In this document: piece by piece, positions 33,167 through 43,258 of the stretch
Layout of the letters: every line of letters starts with the position of its first letter
Numbering within the stretch: the first letter of the stretch is position 1
From: Marinobacterium profundum
GTDB taxonomy: Bacteria > Pseudomonadota > Gammaproteobacteria > Pseudomonadales > Balneatricaceae
Length of the DNA: 64,000 bases
Assembly: GCF_001528745.1 (NCBI RefSeq)
Contig: NZ_BCNS01000091.1
Location: 124,001 to 188,000 of the forward strand
Reading direction: 5' to 3'
The notes under the pieces: model-generated
Database searches by the model: none
What the model was told of the DNA's origin: nothing
What the model saw: the letters and a program-made list of their open reading frames with translations, nothing else
Program-made: the position numbers and the translations under genes

Positions 33167-33248
33167 CGTTAGACGCGGCCCACGCAGAAGTACATCCTTG
33201 AGGTGCTCTGTGCATCACCGTACCTGCCCAAACCGGAACAGAACGCCC

Positions 33249-34616
33249 ATGAGCCCAATCAATCAGGACACCATCGCAGCCCAGGCCACAGCACCCGGTC
33301 GTGGTGGCGTCGGCATTATCCGCGTTTCCGGACGCAAGGCCGCCGCCATCGCCCAGAGCGTTCTCGGTCTGAGTCCCAAGCCACGCTATGCCCACTACGG
33401 CCCGTTCCGCGATACAGACGGGCAGGAGATTGATCAGGGCATCGCGCTATATTTCCCGGGGCCCAATTCCTTTACCGGCGAAGACGTACTGGAGCTGCAG
33501 GGTCATGGCGGTCCGGTAGTGATGGATTTTCTGCTTAAGCGAGTACTCACACTCGGCGCCAGGCTTGCCAAGCCTGGCGAATTTTCCGAGCGCGCCTTCC
33601 TCAATGACAAGCTCGACCTGGCCCAGGCAGAGGCGATTGCCGACCTGATTGACGCCAGCTCCGTGCAGGCAGCCCAAAGTGCGCTGCGCTCTCTGCAGGG
33701 CGAGTTCTCGCGCCGCATCCATGCGTTGGTCGAAGCCCTGATACAGCTGCGTATCTACGTTGAGGCAGCGATTGATTTTCCCGAGGAGGAAATCGACTTC
33801 CTTGCCGATGGCAAGGTACTGGGCGATCTGCTGCAGATCATCGATCAGCTGGAGGCGGTACAGAACGAAGCGCGCCAGGGCAGCCTGCTGCGCGAAGGCA
33901 TGAACGTAGTAATCGCCGGGCGCCCCAATGCCGGCAAGTCCAGCCTGCTGAATGCGCTGGCCGGGCGTGAAACCGCCATTGTTACCGATATCGCCGGCAC
34001 CACCCGGGATGTCCTGCGCGAGCACATTCATATCGATGGCATGCCGCTGCACATTATCGACACCGCAGGCCTGCGCGATGCACCCGATGAAGTTGAACGC
34101 ATAGGTATCGACCGTGCCTGGCAGGAGATTCGCAAGGCCGATCGCATCCTGATGATGGCCGACAGCACCCAGACCAGCGCCACCGAACCGGATGAACTCT
34201 GGCACGATTTCGTCGAGCACCTGCCCGATCTGTCGAAAGTTACAGTGATCCGCAACAAGGCCGATATCAGCGGTGAAGAACCAGGTAAAAAACAGGTTGG
34301 TGAGCACACGCTTATCTCTCTGTCCGCTAAAAGCGGGCAGGGTATAGAGGTACTGCGCGAGCATCTGAAAGACTGCATGGGTTTCCAGAGCACCACCGAA
34401 GGCGGTTTTATGGCACGGCGACGCCATCTGGATGCGCTTGAGCGTGCCCATGAACTGCTGCACACCGGCCGCGACCAGCTTGAACATATGGGGGCCGGCG
34501 AACTGCTGGCCGAAGACCTGCGCCAGGCCCAGCAGGTGCTGAACGAGATCACCGGCGAGTTCAGTTCCGATGACCTGCTCGGGCGTATCTTCTCGAGCTT
34601 CTGTATCGGCAAGTAA
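33249..34616 (+). CDS. mnmE: tRNA modification GTPase MnmE
   Basis: Works with MnmG to place cmnm5 groups on U34 of certain tRNAs. The 455-residue product has an N-terminal formyl-THF-binding domain (about 1-118), helical domain, G domain with G1 [16 protein letters not shown] (about 223-238), G3 DTAGL and G4 NKAD, and the C-terminal FCIGK with its functional Cys. The open frame extends upstream to 33198, but [20 protein letters not shown] at 33249 is where homologues start. Its partner mnmG lies 5.3 kb away beyond an accessory insert and the oriC candidate. Confidence 0.98.
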
Positions 34617-34696: not shown

Positions 34697-36331
34697 TCAG
34701 GCGCCGGATGTCGATAGCTGCTCATCCACACCCACTGTAAGCCCTGCGATTGGCTCCAGGCGCAGCGCACGGTGCACCGATATCGCCATCAGCAAGACCA
34801 GAATGGCTGCTGGCAATGCCGCGCAAATGGTGGCGGTCTGCACGGTTTTGAGCCCCCCCGCCCAAAGCAGGCCCGCCGCTATGGCGCCCACCATCAGCCC
34901 CCAGAGAATACGGCTCGCCTGGGGCGGCTCCAGACTGCCACGACAGCTCAGCGTACAAAGCACCAGGGTGCCCGAATCTGCCGAGGTGACGAAATAGGTG
35001 ACCAGCAGCAGGGTCGCCAGGGCGCTCAGCAGCGTGCTGACCGGCAAGCCGGATGCCACCTCGATCTTGTCAAACAAGGTAAAAATGGCCAGGGTGGAAT
35101 CCGTCTTGGTGGCCAGCAGAATATCGCCGCCCTCAAAGGCAGCCTGCTCGACCTGCAGCGGTGCTGCTTCAACCTGCGCCTGGTGTGCCGCCCGATCGGC
35201 ATGTTCATAGCTCAGGGCGGCGCCGCCAAAGGTAGCGATCCAGAAAAAACCAAACAGGGTGGGTGCCAATAGTGCGCCACCGATCAGTTCGCGGATGGTA
35301 CGCCCCCGGGATATGCGGGCGATGAACATGCCGACGAAGGGCGCCCAGGTCAGCCACCAGGCCCAGTAAAAGGCCGTCCACCAGTTCTGCCACTGGGTAT
35401 CATCCTGAGCATCGCTCCACAGGCTCAGGCCAATGATGTTCTGGGCGTAATCGGCGGTGCCTTCAAGGTAGGTATTGAGAATGTAGCGGGTGGGGCCGAA
35501 CAGCAGTACGGCGGCGAGAATCACCAGCGACAGCACCATGTTCCACACCGACAGCAGCTTGATACCGCGCCCGACACCGGACATAACCGACAGTATCGCT
35601 ATCACCGAGATACCACCGATCATGGCGATCTGGCTACCGATGCCCACCTCCATGCCAAACAGCCGCTCCACACCGGTACTCATCTGCACAACGCCAAGAC
35701 CAAAGGAGGTCGCAATACCAAAAGCCGTGATCACCACGATCAGCACATCCAGCATGTGACCAAACCAGCCGTTCAGACGAGCTTCGCCAAACACAGGTGT
35801 AAGGGCTGCACGAATTGTCAGCGGTTTACCCTTGCGGTACGAGAAGTAAGCCAGCGCCAGGGCGGTCATGATGTACAGCGCCCAGGGGTGCAAACCCCAA
35901 TGAAAGAAGCTGATGCGCATGGCGGTCTGAGCCGCTTCATTACTCAGGCTGGTAGCCGAAAAGGGGTTACCGGCGTAGTGCCACATGGGTTCTGCCACTG
36001 ACCAGAACAGCAGGCCTATACCCATGCCGGCGCTAAACAGCATGGATAACCAGGAGCCGAGGCTGAATTCAGGTTTTTCGTTGTCCAGCCCCAGGCGGAT
36101 ATTGCCGAATCGACTCGCCATCAAATACAACAGGAAGATCAGTACCACCGACGCCATCGCCAGGTAGAACCACTTGAAGTGATGCAGGATATCGGTCGAT
36201 ATGCTGCTGAACAGGGCGCCGGCCTTTTCCGCCATCACGGCGCAAACGACGACGAAGCCGATAATCAGTATTTTCGAGATCAGAGTGACAACGGGATCTA
36301 TCCCGCTGAACAGGCCAGTGTTGCTACGCAT
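34697..36331 (-). CDS. BCCT-family betaine/carnitine/choline-type transporter (possible DMSP carrier)
   Basis: A 544-residue, twelve-helix secondary carrier for trimethylammonium or dimethylsulfonium compounds. It has AGMGIGLLFWSVAEP (101-115, the GMGIG ion/substrate loop of BetP-like carriers) and the helix-8 signature FYWAWWLTWAPFVGMFIARISR (321-342) with the aromatic box tryptophans, then GRTIRE. The C-terminal tail is short, about 30 residues, so osmotic-sensor activity as in BetP is doubtful. It lies downstream of an EamA gene and a DddP-type DMSP lyase on the same strand; Halomonas uses a BCCT protein (DddT) next to DMSP genes. Uptake of DMSP is therefore a reasonable guess, glycine betaine the main alternative. 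Confidence 0.92.
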   Translation of the reverse strand: MRSNTGLFSGIDPVVTLISKILIIGFVVVCAVMAEKAGALFSSISTDILHHFKWFYLAMASVVLIFLLYLMASRFGNIRLGLDNEKPEFSLGSWLSMLFSAGMGIGLLFWSVAEPMWHYAGNPFSATSLSNEAAQTAMRISFFHWGLHPWALYIMTALALAYFSYRKGKPLTIRAALTPVFGEARLNGWFGHMLDVLIVVITAFGIATSFGLGVVQMSTGVERLFGMEVGIGSQIAMIGGISVIAILSVMSGVGRGIKLLSVWNMVLSLVILAAVLLFGPTRYILNTYLEGTADYAQNIIGLSLWSDAQDDTQWQNWWTAFYWAWWLTWAPFVGMFIARISRGRTIRELIGGALLAPTLFGFFWIATFGGAALSYEHADRAAHQAQVEAAPLQVEQAAFEGGDILLATKTDSTLAIFTLFDKIEVASGLPVSTLLSALATLLLVTYFVTSADSGTLVLCTLSCRGSLEPPQASRILWGLMVGAIAAGLLWAGGLKTVQTATICAALPAAILVLLMAISVHRALRLEPIAGLTVGVDEQLSTSGA

Positions 36332-36477: not shown

Positions 36478-37350
36478 TCAGGAAACACAGGCAGGCTGAG
36501 ATCGAGACTGTGACCAGATCATCAGCAAGGCGGCTCCAAGCACCATGACTCCGCCCAGCAGGCTGTTTTCACTCAGGGTTTCATGCAGTATCAGCCAGGC
36601 CCAGAAGATTGAAGCCACCGGCTCCAGCGTCGAGAATATGGCCACATCAAACTGACGCCTGAGCATGCCGATGCCCTTTATCAGCAACAGAAAGGGAATG
36701 AAGGTCGAAACAATGCCAAGCGCGAGTACCGCACTCCAGCCTCGTACCGTCTGGGGAAGGTCGGCGTACCCCAGAATGGCCGGCACCGAGAACACCAGCG
36801 CCGCCCCGATCAGTGTCCAGGCAGAGGAGCCCAGCGCATCACCAACGGGCATCCAGCGCGGCGCCCCCACCAGATAGGCGCTGTAAAACAGTGCCGCCCC
36901 CAGGCCAAACAGGATGCCAACCCAGGAACCGGCGAAGTCGCCATCCAGGGTGAAATACACCCCCGCCAGGGCACCAATCAGCGCCAGCAGGCGAGACCCC
37001 GTAAGGCTTTCCTGGCGCCGTGCCCAGCCCTGCAGAAACACCAACAGTGGGAACAGGCTGAGCAGCATGACGGTCAGACTCACGGTGACCTGTTGTAGCG
37101 CAATGAAATAGCACAGCGATGCCATGCCGTTAATCATTCCCAGCACTCCAGCACCCGGTCTCAGTCGCCGGGTTTTAGCGGGAATAAACACTAACAGCAG
37201 GACGCTGGGCACCAGGAAACGCAACCACACCAGCCCCAGCGCATTGGCACCGTCTGCATAGACTTCGCGGGCAAACAGCGGCTGCAGGCTAAAGCCCAGC
37301 GCCGCCAGCAGTACCAGGGATGCACCCTGCAGATAAAACTTGATTGGCAT
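36478..37350 (-). CDS. EamA/DMT-family transporter in the dddP cluster
   Basis: A 290-residue permease with ten predicted helices in two EamA repeats (about 5-130 and 145-285). GASLVLLAALGFSLQPLFAREVYADGANALGLVWLRFL is the usual first-repeat pattern. The second ends in TLEPVASIFWAWLILHETLSENSLLGGVMVLGAAL, typical of the family. An in-frame GTG at 37365 is possible; ATG 37350 better matches homologue starts. It lies between dddP and the BCCT gene on the same strand. A role in moving a DMSP breakdown product or an amino acid is possible, but not shown. Confidence 0.87.
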   Translation of the reverse strand: MPIKFYLQGASLVLLAALGFSLQPLFAREVYADGANALGLVWLRFLVPSVLLLVFIPAKTRRLRPGAGVLGMINGMASLCYFIALQQVTVSLTVMLLSLFPLLVFLQGWARRQESLTGSRLLALIGALAGVYFTLDGDFAGSWVGILFGLGAALFYSAYLVGAPRWMPVGDALGSSAWTLIGAALVFSVPAILGYADLPQTVRGWSAVLALGIVSTFIPFLLLIKGIGMLRRQFDVAIFSTLEPVASIFWAWLILHETLSENSLLGGVMVLGAALLMIWSQSRSQPACVS

Positions 37351-37365
37351 GATTAAGGTGTCCAC

Positions 37366-37611
37366 AAAGGAAAAAGGGACTCACCGGTCAATGCGATGAA
37401 TCCCAAAAAAAGTGTTTCTGACCCGGCGACTCTCACCGCAGGGTTATTAGCTTGGGTAAACGGTGCGATTTGCTTCGCTCATCAGCACCCGACAAAAGCC
37501 GCTAACTCCAGACCTGGAGATCCCTCCGATCTGGCAGAACAGCTCATGTTGAGTCGTGGCGTGATCGCACACACGCGTCCAAGCGTATGCGTATGCGTCA
37601 TCTCCGACAGG
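37366..37611 (-). promoter_or_regulatory. Structured 246-nt leader/spacer between dddP and EamA gene
   Basis: No credible gene is present. Read leftward, it contains repeated GCATAC units (37585-37600), a CTCCA/TGGAG hairpin near 37505-37520, a GGTGC/GCACC stem enclosing about 18 nt (37462-37489), and an ACCC-GCG/CGC-GGGT hairpin (37419-37445) followed about 10 nt later by seven U. It may end the dddP transcript or act as a leader of the EamA gene. I could not match it to a known riboswitch. Confidence 0.35.
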
Positions 37612-38865
37612 TTAAGCGCGCAGCCAGTCGTCCTGCCACGGATAATGTGACAGCGGCTCGCAGCCATCGGCGGTAATCAGTACCTGCTGTTCCAGCTTGA
37701 TACCTTCAGCGCCACCCTTGGCACCTATGTAGCTCTCAACGCAGACCACCATATTCTCCTCGAACAGGCCATCGTAGCCGCCGCTATCCCAGTCCTTGCC
37801 GGCATGGGCTACGGCCGGAAACTCATCCGCCAATCCGACGCCATGCACCAGGCAGCAATAGCGGTTGTGATGAAATTCTGCCGGAATCGGCCAGGCACTA
37901 TGGGTAAAATCCCGATAACTGAGCCCGGCCCTGAGAAGCTCCATATTGGTATGGATTTGTTCATGGGCCAGACTATAAAGCCTGCGCTGCTCATCCGTAG
38001 GGGCAACATGGCCGACCGTCCAGGCCCTGGAAATATCCGCGCAGTAGCCGTAGGGGCCAATCAGGTCGGTGTCAAAAGACACTATCTCGCCGGCCTGCAT
38101 AACCCTGTCACTGGACTCCTGCATCCAGGGGTTGGTGCGCGGCCCTGAGGCCAAAAGCCGGGTCTCGATCCACTCGCCGCCATTGCGGATATTCTCGTAA
38201 TGCAGCCAGGCCCAGAGTTCGTTTTCCGTCATGCCTGGGCGCAGCTCATCGTGCATGCGGACGATTCCCTGCTCGCAGACATTGATGGTCCAGCGCATCA
38301 GCGCCAGCTCGTCCGTCGACTTGATGCGACGGGCTTCCTCCATCAGGCTATGGCCTTCAACAACCTTCACATCCAGACGCTGTAACAGTTCAAGCCCTTC
38401 GAACTCGGCTTTGTCTACCGCCAGGCGCGCACCCTTGCCACCATAATGACGTAGCAGATCCGCGATTTCGGCGGCCCAGAGCGCGGCTTTCTCACCCATG
38501 CGCGAACCCGCACCGAAGTAGCTCCAGTTCAGCGCCGGACGAATCTCGTCGATCAGCTCATTGCCGTGCTGCAGATGCTCGCAGTTGTGGAACTCCCACA
38601 GGATCACCGGACCCTCTGCAAACACCAGCGCATAGCGGGCATAGTTGTGCAGCGTCCAGACCTGCATGTTCGAACTGTCGGTGGCGTAACGTATATTCAC
38701 CGGGTCGTACAGCAGCATGGCGGTGCAATCATTTGCCCGCAGTTGCTCGCGCACACGCTGCAGACGATAACGCTTGGCCGCACTGTGCGTCTCTGGCGTG
38801 ACAGGGTTGCGCAGCGGCGCCTCTACGACAGATAGCTTTTCACTGCACTGGTTTTTGTCGGGCAT
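37612..38865 (-). CDS. dddP: DMSP lyase DddP (M24 metallopeptidase fold)
   Basis: Probably cleaves dimethylsulfoniopropionate to dimethyl sulfide and acrylate in the cytosol. The 417 residues follow the pita-bread M24 fold. YDPVNIRYATDSSNMQVW (53-70) and ENIRNGGEWIETRLLASGPR (224-243) resemble alphaproteobacterial DddP much more than ordinary Xaa-Pro peptidases. By comparison with the Ruegeria DddP numbering I recall, all metal ligands are present (D265, D267, D277, H341, E377, E392), as are the residues matching catalytic Asp377 (D347, in HGVGLADEF) and Tyr366 (Y336); offsets are a constant 29-30. An AAAGGTGAG sequence precedes ATG 38865. Alternative: an M24 creatinase or aminopeptidase. Confidence 0.82.
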   Translation of the reverse strand: MPDKNQCSEKLSVVEAPLRNPVTPETHSAAKRYRLQRVREQLRANDCTAMLLYDPVNIRYATDSSNMQVWTLHNYARYALVFAEGPVILWEFHNCEHLQHGNELIDEIRPALNWSYFGAGSRMGEKAALWAAEIADLLRHYGGKGARLAVDKAEFEGLELLQRLDVKVVEGHSLMEEARRIKSTDELALMRWTINVCEQGIVRMHDELRPGMTENELWAWLHYENIRNGGEWIETRLLASGPRTNPWMQESSDRVMQAGEIVSFDTDLIGPYGYCADISRAWTVGHVAPTDEQRRLYSLAHEQIHTNMELLRAGLSYRDFTHSAWPIPAEFHHNRYCCLVHGVGLADEFPAVAHAGKDWDSGGYDGLFEENMVVCVESYIGAKGGAEGIKLEQQVLITADGCEPLSHYPWQDDWLRA

Positions 38866-39903
38866 AACTCACCTTTAAAGGCAGCATATTGTCGTTGTTC
38901 TGGCGTCAAAAATACGCTAATCAGAGGCGCTGTAAATCGACAAATACTCACCGGGTCATTACCAAAAATCACCCTGCTCAGAGCCCCGTCATAACCCGGT
39001 ACGCGTGACGCCCAAGCGGATCAATCGACGGTCATCACCACAGTCGATAGCAACAGAGAATTCAGCAAAATATCGAATTTGGAATCTTCAATACAGGATT
39101 TTGATTTATACAGGCAAGATCTGCACAGCCAGAAAAGTATCCACAGGAAATAACTGCAAAATAGTTATTCACTGATATAACTTTACTCACAGAGAAAAGC
39201 GCCGCAGCCGGTAAAACAAGGTTATTCACAGGCGGTTATTTAGTGACTATACAGCTGCTATCCCACTATGAAACAACAGCTATTCAACCAGGTTGTTCAA
39301 TATACAAATAGCTGTTTTATATAGATTTATACCAATTACGCACAGAAACTATCAACATAGCCAGACTAGGTGCCCAGGGTGACGGCTGTAAGATATAGGG
39401 AAGGCGCACTGCGAATTGAGTCACTGTGGATAGAACCTCATCTTGCCAACAGCTTATTGACAGAAAGGGCACAGCAGCGGCAAATATCCGTGTGAACTGC
39501 CAGGCTCGATTTTATCCTGTGCATAGCTACGGGATAGACCTTTGGATATCACTGTGTGTAACTACCCCTGTGCATAACCACCTGTTTCATCAACAGCCTA
39601 TGCAACGCTTGCTCCCCCATCCGATAGCACCTTCATAACAACCTAGCAACTCTCGCAACATATTGTTTTATATAGATAATAATGCCTTTTAAACAGAAGA
39701 GGCCTTTACTAATAACAACAACAATTACTAAACACATATATAAAGAAAAATATATTTAACTCTTTAAGATCTAAAAGCGTTGAACAAAGGGAGTGTTCAT
39801 TTTTTGAACATTTTCTAATCGACAACATGGGAGTATACTTAGCGCCCATTTTACGACTGGCTCATCTGTCAGGCGGGCAATACTCAACCAGAGGTAATCA
39901 TCG
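38866..39903. other. oriC: Candidate origin of replication (oriC) upstream of mnmG
   Basis: This 1,038-bp gap has no credible gene and is much more AT-rich than its surroundings. DnaA-box-like 9-mers match TTATNCACA on the plus strand at 39222-39230 (exact) and 39137-39145 (one mismatch), with weaker copies at 39165 and 39183. On the minus strand they are at 39569-39577 (exact), 39425-39433, 39518-39526 and 39553-39561 (one mismatch each). An unwinding-element-like stretch, nearly all A/T with TATATA tracts, spans about 39655-39780, next to mnmG. The layout resembles E. coli and Vibrio oriC beside mnmG. parAB, gyrB, dnaA and dnaN are all within 16 kb. Confidence 0.8.
39794..39839 (+). promoter_or_regulatory. 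Palindrome and candidate promoter of mnmG
   Basis: Inverted repeat TGTTCA-N5-TGAACA at 39794-39810, followed by TATACT at 39834-39839 as a candidate -10 box, 65 bp before the mnmG start. The repeat sits where a -35 region or operator would be. The -35 box itself is unclear. Confidence 0.45.
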
Positions 39904-41798
<1,895 letters not shown>

Positions 41799-41799
<1 letters not shown>

Positions 41800-42427: not shown

Positions 42428-43258
42428 TTGGCGAAAATCCTCACCATCACCAACCAGAAAGGCGGGGTGGGCAAGACAACGACCTGCGTCAATCTGGCAG
42501 CGTCACTGGCGGCGACCAAAAAGCGCGTGCTGATGATCGACCTGGACCCCCAGGGCAATGCCACCATGGGCAGCGGTATCGACAAACATACCCTCAAGCT
42601 GTCGGCCTATGATGTACTCACCGACCAGGCCAGCGCCGCAGAGGCGCGTCTGACCGAGGTGCCGGGTGGCTATCATGTAATCGGTGCCAATGGCGATCTG
42701 ACTGCCGCCGAGGTTGAGCTGCTGAGCCTGCCACGGCGCGAGTTCCGCCTCAAGATGGCGTTGCTCGAAGTGGTGGATGAGTATGACTATATACTGCTCG
42801 ACAATCCGCCCTCGCTGAACCTCCTGACCGTCAATGCCCTGGCCTGTTCCAGCGGCGTGATTATCCCCATGCAGTGCGAGTACTACGCGCTTGAGGGGAT
42901 CAGCGCTCTGGTGGGCACCATCAACAAGATCAATCAGCGTCTTAATCCGGAACTGAAGATTGAAGGCATTCTGCGTACCATGTTCGACCCGCGCATGAGC
43001 CTGACCCGCGATGTCTCCAACCATCTGGTGGACTACTTCGGTGATCAGGTCTATCGCACTGTAATTCCGCGCAATGTACGTCTGGCCGAGGCACCCAGTC
43101 ATGGGCTGCCGGCGCTGATGTACGATAAAAGCTCCCGCGGCGCTCTGGCTTACCTCGCGCTGGCGGGTGAGCTTATTCGCAAGACGGCGCAGGTTAAGGC
43201 GGCCGAGGCTGCCGATACCACGGCGGCTGATAAAGCACAGGTACAGGAAACAAACTGA
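42428..43258 (+). CDS. parA: Chromosome-partitioning ATPase ParA (Soj)
   Basis: Walker-type ATPase that forms nucleoid gradients moved by ParB-parS complexes. The 276 residues start with a TTG codon and read MAKILTITNQKGGVGKTTTCVNLAA, the deviant Walker A motif with its signature lysine (K11/K16). LLIDLDPQGNATMGSG-like (RVLMIDLDPQGNATMG) and DYILLDNPPSLNLLTVNAL are the switch motifs. The Ala- and Asp-rich C-terminal tail (about 258-276) is variable in the family. The TTG lies 2 bp after rsmG, and the stop overlaps the parB ATG. Confidence 0.97.
   Translation: MAKILTITNQKGGVGKTTTCVNLAASLAATKKRVLMIDLDPQGNATMGSGIDKHTLKLSAYDVLTDQASAAEARLTEVPGGYHVIGANGDLTAAEVELLSLPRREFRLKMALLEVVDEYDYILLDNPPSLNLLTVNALACSSGVIIPMQCEYYALEGISALVGTINKINQRLNPELKIEGILRTMFDPRMSLTRDVSNHLVDYFGDQVYRTVIPRNVRLAEAPSHGLPALMYDKSSRGALAYLALAGELIRKTAQVKAAEAADTTAADKAQVQETN

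Follow-up and report, generated by a model that had tools for sequence, protein, structure and literature searches.

Among solved structures, the closest to the protein examined here are two DddP lyases of roseobacters, RdDddP (4b28) and RlDddP (4rzy). In DddP, a tryptophan binds the sulfur of DMSP together with a tyrosine (PMC5395565), and the structure titles describe crystals with acrylate for the RlDddP mutants Y366A and D377N. DddP1 and DddP2 of Oceanimonas (Aeromonadaceae) are also ratified in the literature; DddP2 of O. doudoroffii was described as phylogenetically distinct and as surpassing DddP1 in efficiency, and DMS is released by a scallop-symbiont protein that shares 55% identity with DddP2 (PMC10989825). 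Ocean surveys count dddP among the most abundant DMSP lyase genes. Here we describe a gene of Marinobacterium profundum which, judged from its sequence, is a real DddP-type gene encoding a sister-clade protein rather than canonical DddP.

The lyase gene and its place in the window

The window, a stretch of 64,000 nucleotides, carries a three-gene insert between mnmE (trmE; 33198..34616, plus strand) and the putative origin of replication preceding mnmG (gidA; 39904..41799, plus strand), both landmarks being named from their translations alone, as are rsmG, parA and parB downstream of mnmG. The insert lies entirely on the minus strand. It consists of the gene for the DddP-like M24-fold lyase (P0001; 37612..38865), a gene for an EamA-family (DMT) transporter recognized by Pfam (PF00892) and synteny (36478..37365), and a gene for a BCCT-family transporter (34697..36331; PF02028, 576 bits). 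The lyase reading frame, the subject of an earlier note on this DNA, starts with ATG and encodes 417 amino acids without any internal stop. A terminator-like hairpin on the minus strand (37376..37404; 11-bp stem and T tract, a consensus match only) separates the lyase gene from the EamA gene, so that the two may be transcribed separately here. At 5 of the 32 related loci an EamA gene goes with the lyase gene; in L005 the two apparently overlap start to stop. The order mnmG-lyase-EamA is common to M. sedimentorum, whose lyase is 92% identical to that of the window, and M. rhizophilum; compared with both, the window has an extra BCCT gene after EamA.

The 1,038-bp gap between the lyase gene and mnmG (38866..39903) contains 10 DnaA-box-like sites with at most one mismatch, against 0.52 expected, and at 42% GC is the GC minimum of the window. 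The cumulative GC skew reaches its minimum at 43156, and only two DnaA-box-like sites are found in the dnaA/rnpA region of the window. The cluster of sites, the AT-rich gap and the nearby skew minimum indicate that this gap is probably oriC, directly abutted by the lyase gene, whose start codon lies about 270 bp from the first site. The location beside the origin claimed in the earlier note is thus borne out; its suggestion of a raised gene dosage takes this position as its only basis.

Fold, active site and family placement

Matches to PF00557 and PF01321 assign the protein to the M24 "pita-bread" fold with a creatinase-type N-terminal domain. In a phmmer search of the PDB, 4b28 and 4rzy scored 333-342 bits, while no other M24 protein exceeded 70 bits, a similarity well past chance and past that general to M24. 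The sequence blocks cited in the earlier note are real; those shared with roseobacter DddP, to which overall identity is 44%, include GGEWIETRLLASGPR and NIRYATDS-NMQ-W. An AlphaFold2 model (pLDDT 88) superimposes on the DddP structures with Z 45 and TM 0.87-0.88, while Z does not exceed 34 for other M24 structures (prolidases, creatinases, DoeA). The window protein differs from roseobacter DddP by an N terminus about 30 residues shorter and by one extra residue ahead of the glutamate ligands.

All residues named in the earlier note are present. The six metal ligands D265, D267, D277, H341, E377 and E392 correspond to D295, D297, D307, H371, E406 and E421 of RdDddP, and Y336 and D347 to the catalytic Tyr366 and Asp377. 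The offset is not constant as had been stated, being -30 for positions 295, 297, 307, 366, 371 and 377 and -29 for 406 and 421, because the extra residue precedes the two glutamates; the span from the first aspartate to the last glutamate is consequently 127 in the window protein and 126 in canonical DddP. The counterpart of W70 in 4rzy is residue 95 (numbering from the alignment). This tryptophan, the metal ligands and the Tyr366 and Asp377 equivalents are invariant among 29 aligned proteins from both clades, and the same pocket residues are retained in nearly every member of the two. In many deeper paralogues, several of which adjoin MttB or glycine-betaine genes, Tyr or Phe replaces the tryptophan and Gly the aspartate. 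Although complete, the metal ligands are weak evidence alone since they are common to much of M24. The informative residues are Trp70, Tyr336 and Asp347, whose retention favours beta-elimination of an onium compound without naming that onium.

By homology with DddP, the six ligands would coordinate a pair of metal ions, probably iron, to which the carboxylate of the substrate binds; W70 and Y336 would hold the positively charged onium group of the substrate, and D347 would take the proton from the alpha carbon, so that beta-elimination releases the onium group. The products predicted for DMSP as substrate are DMS and acrylate.

The label DddP stands only in part. Fold and active site agree with it, but against NF043017, the NCBIfam equivalog for DddP with a cut-off of 600 bits, the protein scored 420.4 bits (419.6 in the genome search). 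In a tree of 92 proteins it falls in a separate 40-row clade (SH-aLRT 99) beside the canonical clade, which includes both solved DddP proteins, and an AU test rejects nesting the three Marinobacterium proteins within the latter (p = 8e-46). This sister clade, hereafter the window clade, comprises proteins from Marinobacterium, Oceanospirillaceae, Pseudomonas, Halomonas, Aeromonadaceae, Burkholderiaceae and rhizobia, and is frequent among soil and plant bacteria, in whose settings DMSP is mostly scarce. Its rhizobial and burkholderial members are 52-58% identical to the window protein and keep the pocket residues, but differ in their soil and plant hosts and, in Burkholderiaceae, by an Arg in place of His73.

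The supposed rarity of DddP in gammaproteobacteria did not survive examination. Canonical DddP exceeds the cut-off in 9 of 369 sampled gammaproteobacterial genomes and, within the Zobellella family, in 7 out of 75, and dddP had already been listed, by homology, for M. rhizophilum D13-1 and M. profundum at an identity of at least 50% to ratified proteins (PMC9327192). The canonical gammaproteobacterial proteins are 49-50% identical to the window protein; they differ from it by their scores (626-635 bits in Aeromonadaceae), by their clade and by coexisting with a member of the window clade in one genome (G054), which has two canonical copies and one window-clade protein. Such coexistence could reflect a split of function. 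The setting of the second canonical copy of G054 (L131:9457-17186) is unusual for canonical DddP: the neighbouring genes encode a proline-racemase-family protein, a Lyase_1 protein, an aldehyde dehydrogenase, a DddC-like dehydrogenase (84%) and BCCT transporters.

DddP2 of O. doudoroffii (G5CZE7), described as distinct and active, may belong to the window clade. Since canonical Aeromonadaceae DddP is also about 50% identical, the threshold of at least 50% (PMC9327192) cannot place DddP2 inside or outside it. For the scallop-symbiont enzyme, the published numbering implies an aspartate-to-glutamate span of 127 (263 to 390) as in the window clade, although one number looks misprinted (PMC10989825); this gives only an indirect hint of a tie between that enzyme and the window clade.

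Gene neighbourhoods of the window clade

We examined the flanks of 32 loci from named genomes carrying relatives of the lyase; many are from Pseudomonas and hence not independent. A BCCT gene was found in 24 of them, aldehyde dehydrogenase, rubredoxin reductase and FAD oxidoreductase (DAO) genes in 21 each, a Rieske oxygenase in 18 and a GcvA-like LysR regulator in 15, whereas 20 control stretches from the same or related genomes yielded one BCCT, one Rieske match (25% identity) and no MttB. ABC-ATPase and enolase were left out of the evidence, as low-identity matches to them also occur in random stretches. A search of these flanks that covered dddD, dddB and dddC found none of the three in any of the 32 loci. 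The neighbours point to onium or betaine uptake and oxidation more than to a canonical ddd/acu operon. In two Pseudomonas genomes the lyase has as neighbour a long protein that could pass for DddD by its length but proved to be PqqF.

The pairing of Rieske oxygenase and lyase turns up again in numerous alpha-, beta- and gammaproteobacterial genera, and in Rhizobium and Paraburkholderia Rieske, reductase and M24 genes form one run. The closest solved relative of the Rieske proteins of the clade is carnitine monooxygenase, and that of a second Rieske type is the demethylase 3vca/4qup, known as stachydrine demethylase. Rieske oxygenases of the type seen in the carnitine monooxygenase (CntA) and stachydrine demethylase (Stc2) systems accompany the clade, as partners and not as lyase homologues; no M24 protein is known to belong to these systems as described. 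Formaldehyde oxidation genes are part of one Rhizobium cluster, and 4-hydroxyproline epimerase and glycine-betaine ABC transporter genes lie near another. Deeper paralogues adjoin genes for MttB, sarcosine oxidase and glycine-betaine transporters. Our literature search found no paper joining DddP with Rieske oxygenases; the homarine operon was considered as parent pathway, for which no usable paper was found.

Two observations bring this cluster closer to DMSP. Three Aeromonadaceae genomes (L132, L134, L145) have a canonical DddP, and no window-clade protein, in the same slot of a cluster made up of LysR (family c5), BCCT, Rieske (family c8), aldehyde dehydrogenase, rubredoxin reductase, DAO and EutQ genes, the BCCT being 56-61% identical to that of the window. 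That both kinds of protein replace each other in one conserved cluster suggests that they share a reaction, or failing that a pathway, and on this comparison of gene order canonical DddP and the clade protein look functionally interchangeable. In addition, on plasmid pMPC6-328K of Pseudomonas sp. MPC6 the lyase cluster of the clade adjoins a dddD-T-B-C-R-like cluster with genes for a DddD-like CoA transferase, a BCCT transporter, an iron alcohol dehydrogenase and a methylmalonate-semialdehyde dehydrogenase. This region of the conjugative plasmid (L043:7781-46781) forms an osmolyte island, holding also a gene for a choline-binding protein, several BCCT genes and two mandelate-racemase-family genes.

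The host genome has a single DddP-family gene. It also encodes a DddD 86% identical to the plasmid protein, together with dddT/B/C/R-like genes, and a YhdH/AcuI-family reductase scoring over the cut-off. On another contig (L141:7010-14761) lies a Rieske-aldehyde dehydrogenase-rubredoxin reductase cluster that has its own LysR and BCCT genes, the latter 64% identical to the window BCCT, but lacks a lyase; the lyase is thus no longer together with Rieske genes in this host. We infer that the lyase-EamA-BCCT block split from the Rieske genes and then settled at oriC. The BCCT proteins of complete lyase/Rieske clusters in Oceanospirillaceae share 74-82% identity with the window BCCT, the probable importer of the onium substrate, which would enter the cell by this route. 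Full-length DddD was not found in M. sedimentorum or in M. rhizophilum DSM 18822, both of which have the lyase; dddD has been reported for one M. rhizophilum isolate (PMC9327192). A search of seven genomes for cupin DMSP lyases (PF16867) gave no match, but it was run without a positive control and we do not claim their absence.

DMSP or a betaine as substrate

The reading we favor, with some reserve, is that the window gene encodes a dinuclear-metal enzyme of the DddP family, from a clade next to canonical ratified DddP, that would convert DMSP to DMS and acrylate; as far as sequence comparison can tell, it is probably a lyase for small imported onium carboxylates, with DMSP cleavage predicted. 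In favour of this reading stand the nearness to DddP in sequence and fold, the retained pocket residues, the cluster slot also held by canonical DddP, the DddD set and YhdH/AcuI-family reductase of the host, the dddD-like cluster beside the lyase cluster on the Pseudomonas plasmid, and the published accounts of DddP2 and the scallop-symbiont enzyme. That it could be an ordinary M24 Xaa-Pro peptidase, as the automatic annotation of relatives ("Xaa-Pro peptidase family protein") and the common fold would have it, is highly improbable: the DddP model scores 420 bits and the best peptidase model 58, the nearest fold is DddP by 11 Z units, the DddP-specific Trp, Tyr and Asp are kept, and the neighbours are genes for small-molecule transport and oxidation. 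A C-N hydrolase resembling creatinase or the ectoine hydrolase DoeA would suit the osmolyte context and has the same fold (Z about 32), but we give it slightly less credence still, given that creatinase is metal-independent whereas the metal ligands are complete in the window protein, that the DoeA models score 39 and 23 bits, and that identity to these structures is 15-19%. Profile scores and fold comparison thus lead us to reject the peptidase, creatinase and ectoine-hydrolase identities.

A more serious alternative, which we consider possible though the less probable course, is that the clade acts on a quaternary-ammonium betaine, either an N-methylated amino-acid betaine or a compound like beta-alanine betaine. 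In a pathway made up further of a BCCT importer, a Rieske N-demethylase or monooxygenase, an FAD oxidoreductase and an aldehyde dehydrogenase, the enzyme would then catalyze a single C-N cleavage or elimination, and any activity on DMSP would be a side reaction. The recurrence of these genes, with BCCT and Rieske genes scarce in the control stretches, speaks for it, as do the kinship of the Rieske partners with carnitine monooxygenase or the 3vca/4qup demethylase, the Rieske-reductase-M24 runs with betaine-related or formaldehyde oxidation genes near some of them, the company kept by the deeper paralogues, and a published DddP Km for DMSP of 14-17 mM (PMC5395565). DMSP cleavage is weighed down further by the score below the cut-off, the separate clade, the 0/32 count for dddD, dddB and dddC, the spread in soil and plant bacteria and the coexistence in G054. 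Against the betaine, the protein retains the residues thought to bind a sulfonium and to eliminate it, which many MttB-linked paralogues do not; the Rieske cluster of the host lies on a different contig, where it has a separate BCCT; and canonical DddP occupies the same cluster, which hence does not exclude DMSP. With the active site intact, we retain DMSP cleavage as the predicted activity, but the place of the gene in a sister group usually found among genes for the breakdown of nitrogen-containing betaines suggests that DMSP may be neither the sole nor the main substrate.

A broader and more speculative view, to which we attach less weight than to the betaine pathway itself, is that the DddP family consists at its root of metal-dependent onium lyases with which many proteobacteria of soil and sea break down betaines, DMSP cleavage being one specialization. 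The window clade would then act on a betaine that BCCT transporters import and that CntA- or stachydrine-demethylase-like Rieske proteins help to process, and part of the dddP counted in surveys would not be DMSP lyase. The homology thresholds in use (an E value of 1e-30, or 40-50% identity with ratified proteins) admit window-clade proteins. Should DMSP be cleaved by the clade, many members of Pseudomonas, Halomonas, Burkholderiaceae and the rhizobia would count as DMS producers; should the substrate be a betaine instead, the survey counts would be too high and there would be a new betaine pathway to describe. Two things make the question directly testable, namely the cluster slot that canonical DddP also occupies and the existence of Marinobacterium genomes where full-length DddD was not found.

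Two further loci deserve mention. Marinobacter sp. X15-166B has a window-clade copy with an in-frame TAA (L028/L051) and a second DddP-like gene split in two (L057/L061), both in apparent decay. On a plasmid of Rhizobium leguminosarum WSM1689 (L034:15279-20415), two cupin DMSP_lyase proteins (PF16867) are encoded close to the Rieske-reductase-M24 run, accompanied by ETF subunits, an NADH:flavin oxidoreductase and formaldehyde oxidation genes, which places two unrelated "DMSP lyase" families near one another in a soil symbiont.
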